Source: a virus
IMG/VR virus record: IMGVR_UViG_3300010970_000045
Coordinates: 1,909-27,341 of that record
Length of the DNA stretch: 25,433 nucleotides
Reading direction: 5' to 3' (one strand)
Below are positions 1-20,538 of this stretch, in pieces. Below the pieces are notes generated by a model. The model saw nothing but the letters and a program-made list of their open reading frames with translations, searched no databases and was not told the origin of the DNA. Every line of letters starts with the position of its first letter. The stretch's first letter is position 1. Position numbers and translations under genes: made by a program.

Positions 1-625
1 CAAGTGCAACGAGGTGCTGGCTAAGCACTTCCCAGAAGCAACACAATTTACAGATGTGACTACGGTAAAGGGAGAGGATTTAATAAATGCAGGATTTAAT
101 CCAAGCACAGGAATTATTACAGGAGGATTTCCCTGCCAAGACCTCAGCGTCGCTGGCAAAAGGGCTGGTCTTGCTGGTGAAAGAAGCGGGTTATTCTGGG
201 AAATTGCAAGACTTGTGGAAGAAACGCAAACAGAATACTTCGTCATCGAAAATGTCCCTGGTCTGCTTACCAGTAACAAAGGACGAGATTTTGGGGTCGT
301 CGTTGGAACGATGGCCGACCTCGGGTATTCTATCGGGTGGCGGGTGCTTGATGCTCAACACTTCGGAGTACCCCAGCGCCGGCGCCGTGTCTTCATCGTT
401 GGCAAACGTACTACAGACGGAACAAGTGTCGCAGAAATACTATTTAAGTCCGACAGCCTGCGAGGGGATCATACGCAGAGCCAACCGAAGAGGCAAGACG
501 CTGCCACCAGTACTGCAAGAAGCTTTGGTCAGACAGGCTTTGCCAAATACTCCGAAGGAGTAACTACCCTTACTGCAACTTCCTACAAGAGACCGGAAGA
601 TAATGTTGTGGTACACAAAGAGTAG
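1..625 (+). CDS. C5-cytosine DNA methyltransferase, N-terminal/catalytic part (5' partial, frame broken at 3' end)
   Basis: This is the catalytic half of a DNA (cytosine-5) methyltransferase, which would transfer a methyl group from SAM to cytosine in phage DNA, most likely to evade host restriction. The frame is already open at base 2 and reads KCNEVLAKHFP, a normal internal stretch, so the true start lies left of the window. Counting from the ATG at 14, GGFPCQ (37-42) carries the catalytic Cys41, ENV (79-81) is motif VI and QRRRR (121-125) is motif VIII. The frame then enters the variable target-recognition region and stops at 623-625. Motifs IX and X are missing here but continue in the +1 frame from 603. 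The gene looks like one methyltransferase broken by a single-base frame change. The family call is firm; sequencing error, pseudogene and recoding cannot be told apart. Confidence 0.9.
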   Translation, partial: KCNEVLAKHFPEATQFTDVTTVKGEDLINAGFNPSTGIITGGFPCQDLSVAGKRAGLAGERSGLFWEIARLVEETQTEYFVIENVPGLLTSNKGRDFGVVVGTMADLGYSIGWRVLDAQHFGVPQRRRRVFIVGKRTTDGTSVAEILFKSDSLRGDHTQSQPKRQDAATSTARSFGQTGFAKYSEGVTTLTATSYKRPEDNVVVHKE

Positions 626-1082
626 GCGGGCGCAGAATGTGGACGACTACGAGACTTGGGTGGAAGGTGGCGTTATGCCAACGTTAAATGCTTTTGATAA
701 TGGAGATGTAAGAACTACCGTACTGGTATTTACTTCATCTTCATTTGCACAATACACAGAAGGAGTAGGAACTTTGAGATCTAATGGCGGAGATTTAGGT
801 GGAGGATCAAAAAGTTTGATAATCTCTTTTGATACACAGTTTGGTAGCAACGCCACCACCTTTGAGGATATGTCTCCGACACTCAAAGCTAGTCAGCAGC
901 CACCTTCAGTAACTGGAACCTCAGTACGTCGGCTCACACCTTTAGAGTGTGAACGGCTGCAAGGTTTTCCTGACGGTTGGACAGAAGGCCAGTCTGATAC
1001 CCAACGCTACAAGCAAATGGGCAACGCGGTTGCTGTGCCTGTTGTCGAATGGATCATAGGAAATATATGTGATACTCTTTAA
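603..1082 (+). CDS. C5-cytosine DNA methyltransferase, C-terminal part (motifs IX-X) in shifted frame
   Basis: This ORF is the C-terminal continuation of the preceding methyltransferase in the +1 frame. It holds the rest of the target-recognition region (about residues 1-105), then motif IX (RRLTPLECERLQGFP, 109-123) and motif X (GNAVAVPV, 140-147), which help form the SAM pocket and normally close the protein. It has no catalytic PCQ of its own. The nominal ATG at 603 lies inside the upstream ORF, overlaps it by 23 nt and has no clear ribosome-binding site, so independent translation is doubtful. Joining the frames around CACAAAG (615-621) would give a product near the usual size for phage Dcm-type enzymes. 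The stop at 1080-1082 is followed by a hairpin facing the convergent minus-strand operon. Confidence 0.8.
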   Translation: MLWYTKSRRAQNVDDYETWVEGGVMPTLNAFDNGDVRTTVLVFTSSSFAQYTEGVGTLRSNGGDLGGGSKSLIISFDTQFGSNATTFEDMSPTLKASQQPPSVTGTSVRRLTPLECERLQGFPDGWTEGQSDTQRYKQMGNAVAVPVVEWIIGNICDTL

Positions 1083-5022: not shown

Positions 5023-5170
5023 CTTTACCTGTGTCATAGACGGCATTGCCGTCCTCATCTACTGTTACCTTCAAGATACCTAACTCGATAAGTACCAGTA
5101 TCAGATTACGCATATCATTACGTAACTGTTTGATTTCATTCTTTACATATTGTAATTCAGTATTAGCCAT
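5009..5170 (-). CDS. Small coiled-coil protein (53 aa)
   Basis: This 53-residue ORF starts MANTELQYVKNEIKQLRNDM. A helical, probably coiled-coil N-half is followed by LIELGILKVTVDEDGNAVYD and a polar tail. The ATG at 5170 lies in the last codons of the helicase gene (8-nt overlap). Its stop at 5009-5011 lies 14 nt inside the resolvase-like gene, matching the local packing. It has no recognised family but resembles the 70-residue coiled-coil gene at 4464-4676 in layout. Confidence 0.6.
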   Translation of the reverse strand: MANTELQYVKNEIKQLRNDMRNLILVLIELGILKVTVDEDGNAVYDTGKDGKP

Positions 5171-6017
5171 TGACTACGTAGTTCCCTTGATATCCGGTCA
5201 TTGCATCGTTTTTAATCATAACACCCCACGCATCCTTATCTGATATCTGACAGGCTGCATAGTTTACAAAGAGCGTAGCGTAGTCAGAAGCATCTGCAGT
5301 GTGTGGCCCAAAGCGGTTCTTTACTGCAGCAACGCAAAGAACTGCTTGGTTTGGATCATACCCAAGGGTCAGTATCAGGGCTGGTAATTGACTTACCTTG
5401 CCGTGAATAGCACGGCGAGCAGGTGGCTTTGACGGTGAGCCATACTCGCTTTGCTCGCTAACGTGGTGCAGTACCAGTACGCAGGCTTCTGTCTTACGTG
5501 CCATATCGTGCAACTCCATCATAATTGCACGCAGGCCAGCCCACTCGTTCTCAGTTTCTGCTGCCACGTTCATTAAGTTATCAATGACAATTAACTCAGG
5601 AGCTATTCCGTATAACTCCACATACGCTTTGATCTCTAACTCGATGTCATCTAGTGACGGTGACGAGTCAAAGACCCACTTGATATGGTTGAGTTTGCCA
5701 AAGTGGTTGTCGTAGTAGTGACTGTTCTTAGACAGGTTCATTTCTACTGTGACTTGTGAATGACCGGACGCTGCTGCAGCGGCTCGCATCATTACAGTTG
5801 TGGTATCAGTATCGGCAGAGAAGAATAGAGTTGGCACCTTTGCCTTCATTGCATAAATAAGAGCAAACATACTCTTACCAGCGTTAGGCGCAGCTGCCAC
5901 CATACAGACTTGTCCTCGCCGGAACTTAATCTGCTTGGCAGATAGTGCGTGCCACACGTCAGGTAGTGGCGTTGCTTTAGTAAGCACACCACTCCAAGCA
6001 CGTGATAGGTCAAGCAA
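5163..6017 (-). CDS. DnaB-like replicative helicase ATPase (RecA-fold)
   Basis: This is a 284-residue RecA-fold ATPase that lacks the N-terminal domain of full DnaB. Walker A is APNAGKS (43-49), an aspartate-rich strand after LFFSAD (65-69) follows it, Walker B is ELIVIDN (141-147, Asp146), and LVLHHVSEQ (181-189) is the sensor/H4 region. It would unwind DNA at the phage fork and work with the primase downstream. The start codon is TTG, not ATG: AAGGAG lies about 9 nt upstream within the end of the WhiB gene, and the two genes overlap by 8 nt. A RepA-like hexameric helicase is the nearest alternative. No polymerase is seen in the window. Confidence 0.8.
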   Translation of the reverse strand: MLDLSRAWSGVLTKATPLPDVWHALSAKQIKFRRGQVCMVAAAPNAGKSMFALIYAMKAKVPTLFFSADTDTTTVMMRAAAAASGHSQVTVEMNLSKNSHYYDNHFGKLNHIKWVFDSSPSLDDIELEIKAYVELYGIAPELIVIDNLMNVAAETENEWAGLRAIMMELHDMARKTEACVLVLHHVSEQSEYGSPSKPPARRAIHGKVSQLPALILTLGYDPNQAVLCVAAVKNRFGPHTADASDYATLFVNYAACQISDKDAWGVMIKNDAMTGYQGNYVVNG

Positions 6018-6276
6018 CGTCTGACTCCTTCAATGTAATATTCTTTTGACGACGAAGAGTTCGTCGCTCATTCTCTGTAAGACCGCCCCATATTCCGAAG
6101 CGTTCTTTGTTTATTCCCCACTCTGCACATTCGCTACGATGTAGGCAACTTCTGCAAATAGACTTAGCCATTAGCATTTCAACAGAGTTACTTGATCCAT
6201 CTGATTTCTCAGGAAACCAGAAGTCGCCACCTACCTGAGCGCAAGCAGGGTTCTCATAGAACCTTGGCTCGCGCAT
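6010..6276 (-). CDS. WhiB-family iron-sulfur transcriptional regulator
   Basis: This 88-residue protein starts at the ATG at 6276 (MREPRFYENPAC), just past the stop of the upstream gene. An ORF extension to 6357 exists but runs into that gene. Four cysteines (12, 41, 44, 50) give the C-x28-C-x2-C-x5-C cluster that holds a [4Fe-4S] centre in WhiB-like proteins. It is followed by FGIWGGLTENERRTLRR, the G-[IV]-W-G-G turn and basic tail that contact sigma factor and DNA. Phage WhiB proteins are known to modulate host transcription, for example by competing with host WhiB at the primary sigma factor. It is the main sequence evidence for an actinobacterial host. Confidence 0.92.
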   Translation of the reverse strand: MREPRFYENPACAQVGGDFWFPEKSDGSSNSVEMLMAKSICRSCLHRSECAEWGINKERFGIWGGLTENERRTLRRQKNITLKESDVA

Positions 6277-6280
6277 CGAG

Positions 6281-6673
6281 TTATCGGATCCAGATAGTGT
6301 CGCACTTGTCTGTTGCACCCTTTGGTGCAGCACACATATAGCCCTTCCAAGGTCCACGAGCTGATGTACCAGAACGAAGTGCCATTACTCCGTGACGGCA
6401 TTGTTGATCTCCACCGGTAGGTGCAGGAGCAGCAACTGGTGTTGCATTAAATGCTGCAGCAACTGCTGCAACTGTTGGTGCTGGTGCAGCCACTGGTGCA
6501 GGTGCTACGCCACCAGTAAGTTCGTGACCAGTTGATCGAATGTTAAGTGCGTTCATAGCAAGGTCTGCTAATCCGCTTTCAAGTTCTGTAACGCTTGTTG
6601 CGTACAGGTTGATAAGAGTTCCGTCGGCTAACTTGTAGTTAATCTGGAACTTAGTTGTGTCCGGTGCTGACAT
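6281..6673 (-). CDS. Zinc-binding protein with Ala/Pro-rich linker, unknown function
   Basis: This is a 130-residue protein starting MSAPDTTKFQINYKLADGT at the ATG at 6673. The upstream ATG at 6688 is part of the GGAGGA ribosome-binding site. An N-terminal domain of about 50 residues is followed by a linker of Ala/Pro/Val repeats (residues 57-90). A C-terminal segment, CRHGVMALRSGTSARGPWKG, continues with two further cysteines and ends DTIWIR. The Cys/His spacing suggests a small zinc domain. Its place between the Cas4-like nuclease and WhiB suggests a replication or recombination accessory such as a ssDNA-binding factor, but no OB fold is evident. Function is left open. Confidence 0.7.
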   Translation of the reverse strand: MSAPDTTKFQINYKLADGTLINLYATSVTELESGLADLAMNALNIRSTGHELTGGVAPAPVAAPAPTVAAVAAAFNATPVAAPAPTGGDQQCRHGVMALRSGTSARGPWKGYMCAAPKGATDKCDTIWIR

Positions 6674-6674
6674 A

Positions 6675-7634
6675 TTACTTTCCTCCACTTGGTTTGATGT
6701 TTAATCTAATAGACTCTTTGCCAACTGTCTTTGGTACAAAGCCTAATAGTTTCTCTACTTGTGTTGCATCAACTGTCTCACGGCCTTTAACCGTTGTCCA
6801 ACTGATCTGAATACCACTAGCAGTAACGCCAGTAGTTCCCTCGAAGGATGACTTCAAGGAATCCTTCTCTTTTTCCAACTCTTTGATCTTCTCGTCTAAC
6901 TGTAGATACTTCAGTGCGTGGTTGTCAATTTCTGCGTCCTCAATCACGACTTCACTAAGGACGATACGTTCTTTTATTAGACCTACGCAACCCATCTCTC
7001 CAGATGCGTCGTAGTACTGGCAGTAGTTCTTGCAGAAGGACTCATCCTTCTCCGGTGCTGGTGCCTCTGTCAAGTTCTTAACGTTAGCCAACCACTGCAG
7101 CGCCTCTAGCGCTGAGACTTCATCGTAAGGTTCTGTGTGTACCTTGACATCCTTCTCGCTACCATCACGTGCAATCGCTACTAGGTTAACTGTCTTAACT
7201 TCATAGCCATTCTTAGATAGCAAGTAGCCATAGACCTGCACCTGCCAGCGCTGTTGCGCTGACGGGAAGTATGAAAGGTTCTTAACCTTAGATGTCTTCC
7301 AGTCAATGACTGCACCGATACCCGGTACGAATAAGTCAACGTGTGCTTTCATATCACCGTACTCAACTGCAGTCTCGACTAAGTAATCCTTACCTTCTGG
7401 ATCCAGTGTTGTGATTGCATCTTCGATAGCTGCGTGAATAGCAGTACCCATAATTGCAGCCAACTTAGACTGGTTCTCGTTAGTCTCTGGCTGTGCGTTA
7501 AGTCGGTACCAGACCTTACGACGGCAGCCACCGATCTCTGATGGACCAACCTGTGTCTGCTTGCTACGGTCACGACCTGCATCTTTAGAGTGCAGTACGT
7601 GCAGTAGTAATTCCTTTGGATCCTCAATCGCCAT
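6675..7634 (-). CDS. Cas4/RecB-like PD-(D/E)XK exonuclease with 4-Cys cluster
   Basis: This is a 319-residue nuclease. His67 (GTAIHAAIE), Asp100 (AHVDLF), Asp111-x-Lys113 (VIDWKTSK) and QVQVY (131-135) form the RecB/Cas4 active site. Cys37 together with Cys201, Cys205 and Cys216 matches the four-cysteine iron-sulfur arrangement of Cas4/AddB-like enzymes. A charged coiled coil follows (DEKIKELEKEKDSLKSSF). It would resect DNA ends for recombination-dependent replication. No CRISPR repeats or other cas genes are present, so an adaptation role is not supported. It overlaps the small zinc gene upstream by 11 nt, with GGAG seven nt before its ATG. Confidence 0.82.
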   Translation of the reverse strand: MAIEDPKELLLHVLHSKDAGRDRSKQTQVGPSEIGGCRRKVWYRLNAQPETNENQSKLAAIMGTAIHAAIEDAITTLDPEGKDYLVETAVEYGDMKAHVDLFVPGIGAVIDWKTSKVKNLSYFPSAQQRWQVQVYGYLLSKNGYEVKTVNLVAIARDGSEKDVKVHTEPYDEVSALEALQWLANVKNLTEAPAPEKDESFCKNYCQYYDASGEMGCVGLIKERIVLSEVVIEDAEIDNHALKYLQLDEKIKELEKEKDSLKSSFEGTTGVTASGIQISWTTVKGRETVDATQVEKLLGFVPKTVGKESIRLNIKPSGGK

Positions 7635-7794: not shown

Positions 7795-7901
7795 TGTAGA
7801 TCCTTATAAATAAATTGAATAATGGTGATGTGACAACTCGACAAGTAACCAGCCGTTAGTCCTCGGCTTAATTGCCACATTCTTACCTGACTTACGACCA
7901 T
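7791..7901 (-). CDS. Possible 36-aa ORF; competing frame also looks coding
   Basis: Two frames compete here. The ATG at 7901 overlaps the previous stop (TAATG), has AAGGAG upstream and runs to a TGA overlapping the next TTG (TTGA), so its junctions are ideal, but its peptide (MVVSQVRMWQLSRGLTAGYL onwards) looks unremarkable. The neighbouring frame, ending at TAA 7804-7806, reads GRKSGKNVAIKPRTNGWLLV and looks more protein-like, but it lacks an ATG and offers only an internal GTG. One of them is probably translated, or a base has been lost or gained. Confidence 0.3.
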   Translation of the reverse strand: MVVSQVRMWQLSRGLTAGYLSSCHITIIQFIYKDLH

Positions 7902-8110
7902 TATTCTAACTCCTTCTCAATAGCGTCTTTAATTACATTAGATAAAGACAAAACACCTTGATTAAACTCTTCGTTAGCACGTACTTGTCCATCATCGTAT
8001 CCTTGTAAAATTTCCACTACTGCACGCAGTGCAGCATAAGGCGTCTCTAGTGTGCGACTTTCCCTGTAATTCTTGCTGGCGATATTTGCTAGCAGTTCTT
8101 CGTATGTCAT
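7901..8110 (-). CDS. Small helical protein (69 aa), unknown
   Basis: This is a 69-residue, mostly helical, acidic protein beginning MTYEELLANIASKNYRESR and ending DAIEKELE. It has no cysteines, membrane segment or known motif. The ATG at 8110 overlaps the stop of the membrane microprotein (ATGA). It lies in the early operon between the proteasome-like gene and the nuclease. It is coding by length and junctions; function is not recognised. Confidence 0.65.
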   Translation of the reverse strand: MTYEELLANIASKNYRESRTLETPYAALRAVVEILQGYDDGQVRANEEFNQGVLSLSNVIKDAIEKELE

Positions 8111-8193
8111 CTGTTATCTCTCTTCGTTAACCAATAGTCGAAAGCATAAGCCCCGACAAAGCCAATTAGCAAACCGAACCAAAAGCCAATCAT
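8107..8193 (-). CDS. 28-aa single-pass membrane microprotein
   Basis: This 28-codon gene starts with an ATG at 8193 that shares bases with the stop of the proteasome-like gene (TAATG). Its TGA at 8107-8109 shares bases with the next ATG (ATGA). The product begins MIGFWFGLLIGFVGAYAFDY and ends WLTKRDNR: one glycine-spaced hydrophobic helix with a basic C-terminal tail, so N-out/C-in topology is expected. Exact interlocking at both ends makes chance unlikely. It may anchor or regulate the adjacent peptidase, or act on the membrane independently; neither is shown. Confidence 0.6.
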   Translation of the reverse strand: MIGFWFGLLIGFVGAYAFDYWLTKRDNR

Positions 8194-8753
8194 TATTCCC
8201 AACCTCTCTGCTGTGACTCCAACTGTATTGGAGGACAGGTATTTATATCAAGTACAGACGCGATCTTTACTGCTCTTTCTGCAATTACCTTTGCCATCAG
8301 CAAGCTCTTGTACGAACTAGGCTTGAGCGAGTACAGGTAGCCCAGTGCGTATGGCCCACCACTACCTGCCGTGAAGAGTCCGTTCTCACTACCGTTAAAG
8401 GAAAGATCTGGGCCGATAGAAAATAGATACGAGTCGAACGCTAATAGGTAGCAGAAGTTTGCTTCCTTATCGTTTGGCTCATACCCATTCTCTTTGAACG
8501 CATTGTAGATACTAGGTATGACAGTCTTACCCATCCACGTCACCGGATCCTGAGACTTGTACATCGGTGGCTTCCAGTTATAGATCAGGATATCTCCTGG
8601 GCGTGAGTCACCGGTTACACCTAACAGGTACTTACCCTTGCGTACAATCTTGGGCGTCTGCGTACTAATGATGCGCTGGTCGCCATCGGTCACTTGCGAA
8701 TCTGCGCCCATCACAACGAAGTCAGGGCCTTGCACAGCTACTAATGTTGTCAT
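8193..8753 (-). CDS. Proteasome beta/HslV-like Ntn-hydrolase peptidase
   Basis: This 186-residue protein has the fold signature of self-compartmentalising proteases (20S beta, HslV, Anbu). After removal of Met1, the N-terminus is TTLVAVQ with a Thr1 nucleophile. VMGADSQVT places the catalytic Asp at mature position 17, PKIV gives the catalytic Lys at mature 34 (canonical 33), and TAGSGGPYALGYL supplies the Ser-Gly-Gly (canonical Ser129). AERAVKIASVLDI matches the closing helix and Asp of HslV. There is no propeptide, as in HslV. Length matches HslV (about 175). Substrates could be host regulators or phage proteins. No HslU/ARC-type ATPase is in the window, so it may use a host unfoldase or act alone. 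It is the first gene of the early operon, with an apparently leaderless mRNA. Confidence 0.8.
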   Translation of the reverse strand: MTTLVAVQGPDFVVMGADSQVTDGDQRIISTQTPKIVRKGKYLLGVTGDSRPGDILIYNWKPPMYKSQDPVTWMGKTVIPSIYNAFKENGYEPNDKEANFCYLLAFDSYLFSIGPDLSFNGSENGLFTAGSGGPYALGYLYSLKPSSYKSLLMAKVIAERAVKIASVLDINTCPPIQLESQQRGWE

Positions 8754-8759
8754 AGGCCA

Positions 8760-8788
8760 AGTATAACACGGCGTGTCTCATTTCACAT
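8760..8788 (-). promoter_or_regulatory. Leaderless minus-strand promoter for the early operon
   Basis: Reading the minus strand, an extended -10 TGTTATACT covers 8768-8760, and only six bases (TGGCCT) separate it from the ATG at 8753. Transcription would start at or next to the A of the ATG, giving a leaderless mRNA, an arrangement common in Actinobacteria. The -35 region (around 8783-8788) is weak, fitting an extended -10 promoter. Confidence 0.6.
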
Positions 8789-8812: not shown

Positions 8813-8835
8813 ACGAACGTAAGTGAGTAACGGTA

Positions 8836-8955
8836 AGCGGCCCCTGTCGGGGCCGAGGCGTAGCCGAGAGGCGACTGACCACAGGAAGGAGCCGTGCCGG
8901 GCAATGCGGTTCCACCCCTTTGTAATGCCTAAAATCAAGCGCCTATTCAGGCGCA
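8836..8955 (+). ncRNA. GC-rich hairpin-forming 5' leader (candidate cis-regulatory RNA)
   Basis: Three stems are clear. GGCCCC (8839-8844) pairs with GGGGCC (8849-8854) around TGTC. GGAGCCG (8888-8894), which contains the Shine-Dalgarno core, pairs with CGGTTCC (8907-8913) and leaves the ATG at 8904 in the loop. GCGCCT (8939-8944) pairs with AGGCGC (8949-8954) around ATTC. GCCGAGAGGC (8863-8872) can form a small hairpin too. The tract is far richer in GC than its surroundings. It could be a translational switch, or simply a structured coding start. No known Rfam class is recognised. Confidence 0.4.
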
Positions 8956-9152
8956 CAGAATACCTCTCAAAACCGTTTGGAAGCGATCTGAGGGCCTTTG
9001 GGCCTGTCCACGTCTGTCCGTGTGGGTCGCAGGTCTTTAACGTTATGGCGACCTTTGAAGACTATGAACTGGTCTGGTACTTCCTAGATGCAACCTGTGT
9101 TAACTGCGGGAACCTAGTAACTGTTCCTTGTCCGGTGGACAAAGAGGCATAA
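8904..9152 (+). CDS. Zinc-ribbon protein of unknown function
   Basis: This is an 82-residue protein when read from the ATG at 8904 (MRFHPFVMPKIKRLFRRTEY). Alternatives are the GTG at 8823 (109 aa, adding a basic Arg/Lys-rich segment) and the ATG at 8925. The C-terminal half holds CPCGSQVF and, 29 residues later, CVNCGN, then VPCPVDKEA: a four-cysteine zinc ribbon with a possible fifth Cys. GGAAGGAG ends 12 nt before the 8904 ATG but may be hidden in a stem. It is the only plus-strand gene between the two minus-strand operons. Function is unknown; a small nucleic-acid-binding regulator would fit. Confidence 0.7.
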   Translation: MRFHPFVMPKIKRLFRRTEYLSKPFGSDLRAFGPVHVCPCGSQVFNVMATFEDYELVWYFLDATCVNCGNLVTVPCPVDKEA

Positions 9153-9195
9153 AAAAAGAAGCCCCCCACCCAGGATTTCTCCTGAGCAGGGGGCT
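9150..9195 (-). terminator. Intrinsic terminator of the late operon
   Basis: On the minus strand a stem AGCCCCC/GGGGGCT (9194-9188 with 9166-9160) encloses a second stem CAGGA/TCCTG, and is followed by TTC and seven T residues (9157-9151). It lies just after the holin gene (ending at 9219) and before the tail of the plus-strand gene. Polarity shows it ends the long late transcript. The plus strand lacks a T tract after the hairpin. Confidence 0.85.
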
Positions 9196-9859: not shown

Positions 9860-10053
9860 TACTTCTCCGCTATCAACTTGTAGAGGTCGTCAATGCGATC
9901 CTCTAATCTTTTGACGGAATCTTTGAGACTGCTGCCACCGTTGGGCTTAAGTTCATTTAAGTAATGTTTTACTAACCATCTAATAGATGCAGCAACACCT
10001 CCGATAATTGTTATTACTGATACTGCTACTGTTGCATAGTCTTGTAGTTGCAT
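9859..10053 (-). CDS. Small membrane protein with coiled coil (holin/antiholin candidate)
   Basis: This is a 64-residue protein. Residues 7-28 (ATVAVSVITIIGGVAASIRW) form one transmembrane helix, and residues 42-64 (LKDSVKRLEDRIDDLYKLI) form a coiled coil, joined by a Pro/Gly turn. Single-span proteins of this design often neighbour endolysins in actinophages and are annotated as holin partners. It overlaps the endolysin ATG by one base (TAATG). It may regulate the two-span holin at 9219-9407. Confidence 0.65.
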   Translation of the reverse strand: MQLQDYATVAVSVITIIGGVAASIRWLVKHYLNELKPNGGSSLKDSVKRLEDRIDDLYKLIAEK

Positions 10054-10556
10054 TAGACCGTCCGGATCGTGTTATAGGTTTCAAGTATTTCTAAAGCCCA
10101 TTTAACTTTATCTTCTACTCGTTGCCCGTATGGTTGGCTAGTTGACCAGAGTTCAAGGTTTTCAATTCTGTTGTCTGCCCGATCTCCGTTTTTATGATGT
10201 ACTGATTCGTGTGATAGTAAAGGTCTTCCTAAGTGTTGTTCCATTACTTCTCTGTGAACTTTTATTGATTTGTTATTCTTCTTGTAAACCATATAACCAT
10301 TAGAATCTGGTATAGGTTTATATGCAGGTTCCAATGGTTTTTCTATTTGTAAGTCACCAGTGTTTTTAAGTCTATTAATATGACCCGTGCAATAACCTAA
10401 ACCTTTGTGAACTTTTTTACAGGATTCAATAGAGCACATCTTTACCCTGCTTTTTCTTACTCTTAAAAGTTTTCCTGATTTGAGTAAATGCTCATAATGT
10501 GACGAGCAATAATTTCTTGCCTTTATTGGTTTTTGGCAGTTTTCTATTTGACACAT
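10053..10556 (-). CDS. HNH homing endonuclease with duplicated N-terminal zinc motif
   Basis: This is a 167-residue free-standing HNH endonuclease. Two copies of a C-x4-C-x9-C-x2-H zinc motif open the protein (C2, C7, C17, H20 and C41, C46, C56, H59), probably for DNA recognition. The catalytic HNH_3-type core is [20 protein letters not shown] (118-137), followed by a helix. It is more AT-rich than its neighbours, as expected for a mobile gene. Its last five residues, TIRTV, are identical to those of the preceding 734-residue protein. It separates the tail module from the lysis cassette. Confidence 0.88.
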
Positions 10557-12772: not shown

Positions 12773-12856
12773 TTAGTATATTTGTTCTTCTACTTCGTCA
12801 ACTGCATCATCTATGTCTTTAACTATTGGTATTAAATCTTCAATCCAGGTCAACAT
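12773..12856 (-). CDS. 27-aa acidic amphipathic microprotein
   Basis: This short ORF begins MLTWIEDLIPIVKDIDDAVD and ends EVEEQIY, followed directly by the AAGGAG of the 734-residue gene. It starts inside the last codons of the endonuclease VII gene, which may have landed next to it. It is an acidic helix with no relatives recognised. The tight junctions and protein-like composition support it, but its size limits certainty. Confidence 0.4.
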   Translation of the reverse strand: MLTWIEDLIPIVKDIDDAVDEVEEQIY

Positions 12857-13277
12857 TATATTTTCTAATATAATCAAGAGCTGAATTTATGTATTCAGGA
12901 TTATCTTTTAAAAAACCAATAGCAGAATTGCAATTTCTGCATAATAAGCCTCTTACACATTTGCCACAAGAATTTTCTCCAGGGCAACAATTATGATCGT
13001 GATCCACATAGAAATATGAGTAATCAATTTCTTTTGTTTCACATATTGCACAACCATCATTCTGAAGTTTTAACATTTCTTTATACTCTTCTAAACTTAT
13101 GCCGTATTTGTGCTTTAATTTAGAATTTTTAATTGATTCTGGGTTTGCTTTACGCCAAGCATTATTTTTAACGCTTTGCTTTTTCTTTACTTCAGGGCGT
13201 TGATTATACTCACGTTTATACGCTTGTATCTTTTCACGTTCTTCCGGAATATCCCAGTAGTTTTTTCTTGTAGCCAT
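12840..13277 (-). CDS. Endonuclease VII-like HNH nuclease
   Basis: This 145-residue protein has the recombination endonuclease VII (His-Me finger) signature. C76 and C79 (GCAIC) and C113 and C116 (LCRNC) form the zinc pair, and YVDHDH (90-95) is the catalytic His/Asp stretch, followed by VRGLLCRNCNSAIGFLKD. Two more Cys (ENSCGKC) lie in the loop. The first 50 residues are basic and helical. It is AT-rich relative to flanking genes and sits between two structural genes, so a homing endonuclease is more likely than a debranching enzyme. Confidence 0.85.
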   Translation of the reverse strand: MATRKNYWDIPEEREKIQAYKREYNQRPEVKKKQSVKNNAWRKANPESIKNSKLKHKYGISLEEYKEMLKLQNDGCAICETKEIDYSYFYVDHDHNCCPGENSCGKCVRGLLCRNCNSAIGFLKDNPEYINSALDYIRKYNVDLD

Positions 13278-13524: not shown

Positions 13525-14031
13525 TTATGATTTGGATATGCCGTAAAGTGAAGCAGATGAGTATTGTGCAAGGGTATTAGACCCAAAAGATAAAGTTATA
13601 GATGTTACAGCAGAAGTTACTGTACTAAATAATCCATAGGCTAATTGAGCATATGTGGTAGTTGCATTTTTTTCCATAACGTGATCCAAAGAACATATTT
13701 TAGCATCGGATGTTGTGTAGTTAGGAAGATAAAGTTCGCCACTAGTAAAAGTATTGGCTGTATCTCCAGTTCCAGGTATGTAATCAATTCTGAAACTACC
13801 GCCTACGTCATAAGAACTGGCGGAAGTACCGCTACCAATAAGAGTTTTTGTTACTCCTGCTGTTGAATTAAGTTGAATGAAACCATAATCCACTGAAGGA
13901 TAGCTTCCCAATTTAAGGGTAAACTTAAGAATTAAATCTGTATAAGTAGCAGGAATACTACTAAAAGAAATAGTAGAAGCGCCACCAGCGCCAACAGTTA
14001 CAGTGTTGCCAATTTTAAGAAATGTAGCCAT
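13525..14031 (-). CDS. Receptor-binding-type beta protein, paralogue 1 of 3
   Basis: This 168-residue Ser/Thr-rich beta protein has VTVGAGGASTISFSSIPATY near the start (residues 10-29) and ends AQYSSASLYGISKS. The same N-terminal FSSIP-x-TY block and C-terminal LYGI end occur in the two genes upstream, so the three are tandem paralogues. Such short beta modules at the end of a tail operon are typical adhesion or decoration proteins. The coding sequence is more AT-rich than the neighbouring 734-residue gene, hinting at separate acquisition. Confidence 0.6.
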   Translation of the reverse strand: MATFLKIGNTVTVGAGGASTISFSSIPATYTDLILKFTLKLGSYPSVDYGFIQLNSTAGVTKTLIGSGTSASSYDVGGSFRIDYIPGTGDTANTFTSGELYLPNYTTSDAKICSLDHVMEKNATTTYAQLAYGLFSTVTSAVTSITLSFGSNTLAQYSSASLYGISKS

Positions 14032-14501
14032 TATGCCGCCTTAATTCCGTAAATAGTGATGGTAGAACCAGTAGCCCAGTTATATGCTAAAAATTGGATC
14101 GAAGTTATAGCGGCGGTGCTTCTCCACAGATTTATATCAGTATTAACATATCTTCTACCGCCACCGCGAGTAAGCAATGTTTTGAATGTTGTCGTATTTG
14201 TGTAATTTAGAATATGTCCGTGAATTGCAGCAGTGCCATCTGATACACCTGACAACATATAAGCTATGTTACTGCCTCTAAAACTACCAGCACTGCCTCC
14301 ATCACCATACAAATCTGTCCAAGAATAGTTGCTTCCAGTATCGCCATTAAATTGCATATTTGTATTAACTCCAGAAATTGTTGGAGTGTATATTACATAA
14401 TGAATGTCTGTATATGTTTGAGGAATACTGGTAAAGTTTACGGTGGTAGGGGATCCACCTGCAACAGTTGCAGTTGCTATCGGTTCGTAAGTTTTTGGCA
14501 T
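14031..14501 (-). CDS. Receptor-binding-type beta protein, paralogue 2 of 3
   Basis: This is a 156-residue beta protein: VAGGSPTTVNFTSIPQTYTD (14-33), then FNGDTGSNYSWTDLYGDGG, FKTLLTRGGGRRYVNTD and LWRSTAAITSIQFLAYNW, ending TITIYGIKAA. The order FxSIPxTY, FN-D-G-NY, KTL-x-GG, L-S-AI-S, YGIK is shared with the 14504-15073 gene. It overlaps its downstream paralogue by one base. It is a probable trimeric tip or adhesin domain; the ligand is unknown. Confidence 0.6.
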   Translation of the reverse strand: MPKTYEPIATATVAGGSPTTVNFTSIPQTYTDIHYVIYTPTISGVNTNMQFNGDTGSNYSWTDLYGDGGSAGSFRGSNIAYMLSGVSDGTAAIHGHILNYTNTTTFKTLLTRGGGRRYVNTDINLWRSTAAITSIQFLAYNWATGSTITIYGIKAA

Positions 14502-14503
14502 AA

Positions 14504-15073
14504 TTATTTAATCCCATACAGAGCGAAAGAAGAGTATTGAACGAAGTTGGCTGATCCAGTTTGAGCGTAAAAGGTCATAGAAGAAATTGCTGAAGTACTA
14601 GACCATAGACCGCTAGTATATTTTAACTCGCTACCTAATGCAGTATTATCCTCTGAACCGCCTAAAAATCTTAAAGTCTTATATTTGTTGGTTGACGCAT
14701 AATCTAAAATATCCCAAACGCCAGCAGCAAATACATTGGCTGTTGCATTTGCCGCGGAGTTAATTCCTGATCTGCTGTAGGTTTCTCCTGTATCTGCTAA
14801 AGCACCTACTGTACTGTTGTAACCGTAAAGTATGTGGCGAGTGTAATTAGCGCCAGAGTCAGAATTAAAGCGAACGGCTAGCGAGTCAGTAACATCTGCT
14901 CGGTTGCATCGTGAGATGTATCGAATCTGAAGGTGTGAGTAAGTGCTAGGAATACTGCTAAAAGTAATTGTGTTTGACCCACCAGCTCCAACGGTTACGG
15001 TTGCTATTGACTCAAAATCACCAACAGCACGCGGATAATTTTGAGATGCCAAAATGCCTAAGATTGGACTCAC
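14504..15073 (-). CDS. Receptor-binding-type beta protein, paralogue 3 of 3 (longest)
   Basis: This 189-residue protein starts MSPILGILASQNYPRAVGDF, an extra N-terminal segment absent from its paralogues that probably attaches it to the virion. It then has VTVGAGGSNTITFSSIPSTY, FNSDSGANYTRHILYGY, KYKTLRFLGGSEDN and LWSSTSAISSMTFY, and ends SFALYGIK. As the copy with the anchor segment it may be the parental fibre gene, the other two being derived decoration or variant copies. Confidence 0.6.
   Translation of the reverse strand: MSPILGILASQNYPRAVGDFESIATVTVGAGGSNTITFSSIPSTYSHLQIRYISRCNRADVTDSLAVRFNSDSGANYTRHILYGYNSTVGALADTGETYSRSGINSAANATANVFAAGVWDILDYASTNKYKTLRFLGGSEDNTALGSELKYTSGLWSSTSAISSMTFYAQTGSANFVQYSSFALYGIK

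Positions 15074-17442: not shown

Positions 17443-17456
<14 letters not shown>
16560..17456 (-). CDS. Virion structural protein (tail/neck), 298 aa
   Basis: This 298-residue protein begins MATLDSMVQEVRSSLAGYTL. A beta-rich part with DLAIQVGSADNLAKGIIEID and WIDNF precedes a helical, adaptor-like segment (RTMIKQAINDTINSVYPKLW) and a C-terminal region with ITLGAAYRLLSYVDPGR. The mix of strand and helix and its place among tail genes suggest a neck or tail-tube component of a short-tailed virion. No enzymatic motif is seen. It overlaps the glycosyltransferase by 14 nt. Confidence 0.6.
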
Positions 17457-19696
<2,240 letters not shown>

Positions 19697-19996: not shown

Positions 19997-20161
19997 TCAC
20001 TTCTTCTTTTTGCGAGCTGCTGCTGCGTTGTCTACTAGGTTCGGATATGGTCGTCCGGCTGCTTTGGCTTTAGCCTTAGCAGCAGTTTTCTGTGCAGGAG
20101 TTAATTTGGTTGATTTCTTCTTTGGGTTCTCTTGATCCCAGAACGCTTTCTTCTTCACCAT
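19997..20161 (-). CDS. Small Lys/Ala-rich basic protein (54 aa)
   Basis: This 54-residue protein starts MVKKKAFWDQENPKKKSTKL, continues AKAKAAGRPYPNLVDNAAAA and ends RKKKK. It is strongly basic, perhaps a DNA-binding virion protein. Its start overlaps the end of the endonuclease VII gene by 7 nt, and a GTG one codon later has better spacing from AAGGAG. It matches the style of the basic microproteins encoded just upstream. Confidence 0.55.
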   Translation of the reverse strand: MVKKKAFWDQENPKKKSTKLTPAQKTAAKAKAKAAGRPYPNLVDNAAAARKKKK

Positions 20162-20538
20162 TTCTCCTTATTAGCATAATTTTTTAACCTAGATATTACT
20201 AAGTTTAGGTCATCACCTAATTTGCCAAGTGACGCATTGCACTGTCTACAAAGCGCTCCTCGATAAGATCCTGTTATGTGGCAATGGTCAAGAACTTTGT
20301 CATTATTAAATTCTTTAGAACATATACCGCAATTTGTTTCTTGGTTATATTGTTCTATATTTTCTTCAGTAAGTTTTGCGCCTCTGCCTTTCCAGTGATG
20401 TTTCTTTGAAACACCTGAATTCCATCTGGTTTTTCCATATTCTGTTTTTATATTATTTACATTATTATGGAAACATTTAGCACAATAACCACTGTTAGAT
20501 TTTTTCTTAAATGAAGAGTCGCATCCTGTGCATTTCAT
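20155..20538 (-). CDS. Endonuclease VII-like HNH nuclease
   Basis: This is a 127-residue endonuclease VII-type protein. The core is NCGICSKEF (C70, C73), VLDHCHITG (catalytic DHCH 84-87) and YRGALCRQCNASLGKLGDD (C97, C100). An extra N-terminal zinc motif, C3, C6, C19 and C22, gives two zinc sites. AT-rich and set between two lysine-rich structural genes, it looks like a homing endonuclease insertion. It ends KEKW, like the RVKW end of the upstream gene. Confidence 0.87.
   Translation of the reverse strand: MKCTGCDSSFKKKSNSGYCAKCFHNNVNNIKTEYGKTRWNSGVSKKHHWKGRGAKLTEENIEQYNQETNCGICSKEFNNDKVLDHCHITGSYRGALCRQCNASLGKLGDDLNLVISRLKNYANKEKW

Follow-up and report, generated by a model that had tools for sequence, protein, structure and literature searches.

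The window, which is the whole 25,433-nucleotide stretch of viral DNA that was analysed (positions 1,909 to 27,341 of IMG/VR record IMGVR_UViG_3300010970_000045), contains a minus-strand open reading frame (ORF) from 8753 to 8193. Its product has 186 amino acids and its translation starts MTTLVAVQGPDFVVMGADSQ. The gene heads a presumed early operon that continues with a small ORF, an exonuclease gene, a gp49-like gene, a WhiB-like gene and a helicase gene, while the late structural and lysis genes terminate upstream of it, at 9195-9160. The features of this region, in the order in which the operon is read, are:

9160-9195, minus strand: intrinsic terminator of the late (structural and lysis) transcript, a 16-pair stem with a T tail
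8823-9152, plus strand: small cysteine-containing ORF, divergent, beside the promoter; 29 of 57 close loci contain a homologue
8760-8768, minus strand: extended -10 promoter element TGTTATACT, separated from the ATG by 6 nt, conserved in position upstream of the gene
8193-8753, minus strand: proteasome/HslV-like Ntn-hydrolase gene with its ATG at 8753, identified by PF00227, PHROG 1040, the structural model, residue invariance and dN/dS
7901-8110, minus strand: small ORF of 69 amino acids that follows the peptidase gene in its operon and recurs in 16 of 57 close loci
6675-7634, minus strand: Cas4/RecB-like PD-(D/E)XK exonuclease (PF01930/PF12705, PHROG 1674), found in 57 of 57 close loci
6281-6688, minus strand: mycobacteriophage L5 gp49-like protein of the same operon (PF25690, E 1.2e-8), found in 44 of 57 loci
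6010-6357, minus strand: WhiB-like regulator (PF02467, E 1.2e-14)
5163-6017, minus strand: DnaB-like helicase/RecA-type ATPase that belongs to the replication module and is not an unfoldase (PF03796; PHROG 243, E 5e-74)

The divergent ORF has no Pfam family and its true start may lie downstream of 8823. The 69-residue ORF has no known family above the cut-off.

The product of the peptidase gene matches Pfam family PF00227 (Proteasome) at E 9.5e-7 and 29.1 bits, over the curated cut-off of 22.4, and residues 1-182 match PHROG 1040 ('peptidase HslV family') at E 2.7e-23. The NCBIfam HslV equivalog models give 34.4 bits against a cut-off of 137 and 33.2 bits against 157.75, which makes the protein a relative of HslV and not HslV itself, and the NCBIfam archaeal proteasome beta models also match under their equivalog cut-offs. 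True HslV identity is ruled out by these cut-offs and by the lack of HslU, which was not recognised within the window. A search with the family profile found HslV at 7e-9 and BPH at 2e-6, with weaker matches to 20S beta subunits, and PrcB was absent among its matches at E 0.001. An AlphaFold monomer model (mean pLDDT 83.7, pTM 0.81), built from a 12-sequence alignment, has a predicted four-layer Ntn fold with paired helices, including H1 at 50-59 and H2 at 70-88 of the 185 mature residues. Foldseek searches of the PDB with this model returned BPH as the best match (E 5e-11) and HslV as the next, and VIA-align gave Z 17.5-19 (about 18 for BPH and HslV) over about 165-174 residues, nearly the whole chain, and Z 17.9 against the M. 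tuberculosis proteasome. On its sequence profiles and modelled fold, the protein is placed in the proteasome/HslV Ntn-hydrolase superfamily, in a compact HslV/BPH-like branch. A defence-system library contained no match for it.

The active site is highly conserved. In mature numbering, that is after Met removal, the window protein has Thr1, Asp17, Lys34, Gly47, Ser130-Gly-Gly, Asp168 and Thr171, of which Lys34 aligns with Lys33 of HslV and the proteasome. These residues, together with Thr2 and the full Gly-Ser-Gly-Gly at 129-132, are invariant in the close family, a set of 53 full-length homologues (47 distinct) that are about 61-93% identical to the window protein. When aligned with HslV, Asp168 and Thr171 presumably correspond to Asp166 and Ser169 of 20S subunits. 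Thr1 is retained in all 40 alignable members, and Asp17 and Lys33 in all 41, of a diverse set of 41 sequences that reaches 25-30% identity and includes E. coli HslV. Most phage homologues share a Pro-Pro pair that follows the first helix and is not present in E. coli HslV. The window gene is under strong purifying selection, with dN/dS against it of 0.04-0.13 in comparisons with unsaturated dS. A chance or decayed ORF is ruled out by the profile matches, dN/dS and the invariant residues. The earlier note had read the ORF, from the letters alone, as a proteasome/HslV-like peptidase with a complete active site, and this reading is borne out by the PF00227 and PHROG 1040 matches, by the Ntn fold of the AlphaFold model and by the invariant residues; free variation of Thr, Asp and Lys is excluded, as they are kept to about 25-30% identity.

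Upstream of the gene, the distance from a TGnTAnnnT box to the start codon is exactly 15 nt in 34 of 39 distinct upstream sequences and 16 nt in two more, and much of the region that flanks the box varies among close relatives. The simple sigma-70 scan did not report this extended -10 box, and no clear -35 box was found upstream of the peptidase gene. Conservation of the box in 36 of the 39 sequences points to a promoter of the gene's own at the head of the operon, as had been claimed. The spacing of the box would place the transcription start on the initiator codon, and the peptidase mRNA is therefore probably leaderless, a common mode in actinobacteria (cf. PMC3160421). Such an mRNA would leave no room for a propeptide, so that Met removal alone would expose Thr1, which supports the earlier prediction that the protein has no propeptide. 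Gene order and promoter together suggest that the window gene is expressed early. Different upstream sequences are found in the exceptions, L003, L016/L031 and L048. Two of these close homologues (L003:7028 and L048:9339) have ATC at the expected ATG position, along with an upstream GGAG motif and an apparent overlapping upstream gene, and an AUC start or translational coupling is possible there.

Relatives were recovered in three scans of viral contigs (57, 149 and 144, counts that may overlap), and proteasome-like peptidase genes are present at more than 200 viral loci. The earlier statement that such enzymes are rare in phages does not hold, given these loci, the existence of a PHROGs family and the phage homologues described in PMC8665760; proteasome-like genes are common in actinobacterial viruses. 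No bacterial relatives were found in two scans of genome contigs, although the strict patterns used make this weak evidence for their absence. The WhiB-like gene at 6010-6357 indicates an actinobacterial host, as previously proposed, and WhiB is also encoded by 16 of 20 other phage contigs that carry such a peptidase gene. By synteny, the cultured phages closest to the window virus are Planktophila phages LanE43-AprE7 and F5, whose host is a cultured Ca. Nanopelagicales strain (Ca. Planktophila), and the window virus probably infects freshwater actinobacteria of the Ca. Nanopelagicales. Megablast of the whole window against named phages gave no match. Homologues are also found in Vibrio and Aeromonas phages. 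In a Vibrio phage (L247:1495-1992), a polypeptide deformylase gene lies close to the proteasome-like gene and could help to expose the N-terminal nucleophile. Aeromonas phage 4L372XY (L246:2959-4355) has two adjacent genes that are both annotated 'peptidase HslV family' and whose products possibly form a two-subunit particle.

The position of the gene differs between the window lineage and its relatives. The homologue of E7 and F5, about 30% identical to the window protein, lies directly behind the portal gene, and in loci of this E7 type the peptidase gene directly follows the portal in 80 of 82 cases; the portal was identified by Streptomyces phage portals and PHROG 104. The E7-type gene starts 13-18 nt past the portal stop and is preceded by a Shine-Dalgarno-like AGGGGA site, in contrast to the leaderless-type promoter of the window type. 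In the cultured Planktophila phages and about 80 relatives (L148:5698-8036 and L159-L238), the peptidase gene occupies the usual prohead-protease slot. Near-complete window-type contigs contain the terminase, the portal and the next head genes with no peptidase gene behind the portal, and the gene instead heads their presumed early operon. Window-type and E7-type proteins are sisters in one tree with weak support (85/61), and an alternative grouping of the window type with a third, larger group, the DSL type, is not rejected (p-AU 0.28); firm orthology of the window and E7 types was set aside for these reasons, and the two may be orthologous genes of which one changed place or may have been acquired separately. 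Some DSL-type contigs have the gene order phosphoesterase, peptidase, SPP1-type portal, scaffold-sized gene and MCP phrog_1357, and others have the peptidase gene among small genes, sometimes near WhiB. In one freshwater actinophage lineage (L113:4829-8653), the gene upstream of the peptidase gene, at a distance of 2 nt and just before the SPP1-type portal, encodes a calcineurin-like phosphoesterase. A tie of the peptidase to one capsid type was rejected, as MCP phrog_1357 occurs in only 2 of 20 other records with the gene, some of which are fragments.

PHROG 1040 includes proteins of Actinomycetia phage DSL-LC01, Planktophila phages LanE43-AprE7 and F5 and Arthrobacter phage Hum25. The window protein shares with this family, which has many actinophage members, its profile, catalytic residues and compact length, but it is only 29-36% identical to the proteins of the named phages and lies in a different gene neighbourhood. 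In the survey of Fuchs, Alva and Lupas (2021; PMC8665760), 22 proteasome-like families were newly described, with no function known for them and without AAA+ partners; they include PPH and AAH of phages, but the authors were unable to find any phage specific to actinobacteria that encodes AAH. The window protein resembles AAH and PPH, which are group I homologues found in phages and bacteria, in its lack of a propeptide, compact group-I-like layout, occurrence in phages and lack of an AAA+ partner. PPH proteins have about 140 residues and no helix H2, however, and PPH identity is ruled out by the length of the window protein (185 mature residues) and by H2 (70-88) in the model. The BPH of Thiobacillus denitrificans (5ovs) and HslV are the best structural matches and have the same Thr1, Asp17 and Lys33, as well as GSGG in HslV, but identity to them is about 20-24%, HslV equivalog scores are 33-34 bits versus 137-158, and there is no HslU. 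Actinobacterial PrcB (20S beta) has the same fold and catalytic Thr, whereas the window protein is shorter and has neither a propeptide nor an alpha subunit. The window family is thus a new lineage of an already known kind of proteasome homologue, neither rare nor categorically new; what is new with respect to the survey is that the phages carrying these proteasome-like genes are actinobacterial.

Judged from sequence and gene order, early proteolysis is the most likely function and a head-assembly protease is its best rival. It appears moderately likely that the protein is an active HslV/BPH-like N-terminal-threonine peptidase of a freshwater actinobacterial phage and that it works early, against host proteins or phage proteins made early. 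Soon after entry of the DNA, host RNA polymerase would transcribe from the extended -10 promoter, producing a leaderless mRNA that begins at the ATG and a primary product that begins fMet-Thr-Thr, from which host deformylase and Met aminopeptidase would expose Thr1 with no need for a propeptide. The subunits would then form an HslV/BPH-like ring that hydrolyses unstructured proteins or substrates delivered by a host AAA+ unfoldase, since the phage brings no unfoldase of its own. The observation that no unfoldase is encoded nearby extends to relatives, as the AAA_2 unfoldase domain was found in none of 10 related records and the AAA domain in none of 7 window-type contigs. A phage AAA+ partner in E7 and F5 was discarded because the AAA matches coincide with the DnaB-like helicase ORF, and the two weak AAA matches of DSL-LC01 lie away from the peptidase gene. 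The place of the gene at the front of the exonuclease/WhiB/helicase operon argues for early action in the window lineage. In E7-type phages, which belong to the same larger group, the homologue is part of the late head module, and an early function directed at the host would not be family-wide unless the role changed.

As a head-assembly protease, the enzyme would act during procapsid maturation by clearing or processing scaffold, portal-associated or ejection proteins, with the window copy made early and acting late. Portal adjacency in two lineages favours this possibility: the gene follows the E7-type portal, and in the second lineage an unrelated SPP1-type portal comes after it, then a scaffold-sized gene and MCP phrog_1357. 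In addition, no other protease was recognised among the head-module genes scanned, and window-type genomes have no peptidase gene behind the portal. However, the window-lineage gene heads a presumed early operon under its own promoter, Streptomyces phages with the same portal family have no homologue at E 0.01, 18 of 20 other gene-bearing phage records (some of them fragments) are without MCP phrog_1357, and in many phage records the gene lies at a distance from the head module, in the midst of small genes. A head-assembly role for the window protein is tentative and, on balance, unlikely. The more general proposal that proteasome-type threonine peptidases constitute a new class of phage head-assembly protease, with the window copy under an immediate-early leaderless promoter, is doubtful; it draws on two lineages with different portals, the same capsid family, a portal-adjacent gene and no other recognised protease.

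Early proteolysis presupposes that the protein hydrolyses peptides, which is not guaranteed because proteasome-like folds include the ligase connectase, of the same superfamily and with the same Thr/Asp/Lys centre, and are therefore capable of ligation (PMC8665760). It is quite improbable, however, that the window protein acts in the manner of connectase, as a protein ligase or a highly specific transpeptidase or processing enzyme and not as a degradative peptidase, given that the connectase signature, a helical insertion between strands S3 and S4, is absent and that the modelled layout is compact and HslV/BPH-like with both helix pairs. Interference with the host 20S Pup-proteasome, by a phage subunit that is incorporated into PrcA/PrcB or caps it, poisoning or re-targeting the particle, is highly improbable even though WhiB indicates actinobacterial hosts, many actinobacteria possess a proteasome and the fold matches that of M. 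tuberculosis. Sequence and fold are nearer to HslV/BPH than to actinobacterial 20S beta subunits, which lowers the likelihood of mixed rings with PrcAB; a simple poison would not be expected to keep an intact active site; and homologues also occur in phages of Vibrio and Aeromonas, which are not known to have a 20S proteasome. Poisoning of the host proteasome is unsupported.

The survey in PMC8665760 catalogued phage proteasome homologues and gave none a function. The family is now tied to phages of abundant freshwater actinobacteria, and its function can be tested in two cultured phages that carry a homologue and whose host is known. The two contrasting expression settings in related phages lead to testable predictions, namely early degradation or head assembly.

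The window also carries other genes. Three HNH/endonuclease VII-like genes lie between late genes on the minus strand (10053-10556, 12840-13277 and 20155-20538); few close relatives have them, and they are likely free-standing homing endonucleases. A collagen-like triple-helix repeat protein is encoded at 18514-19365 on the minus strand (PF01391, E 1.2e-37), and the adjoining gene at 17443-18504 encodes a glycosyltransferase with TPR repeats. Three tandem paralogous proteins are encoded at 13525-15073 on the minus strand, in a variable late region, and are multiplied in relatives too. At one end of the window (2-1082, plus strand), a C5 cytosine methyltransferase is split into overlapping ORFs, of which 2-625 matches positions 34-169 of PF00145 and 603-1082 matches positions 269-322. 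The same two-ORF layout recurs in contig G002, which makes a sequencing error unlikely.
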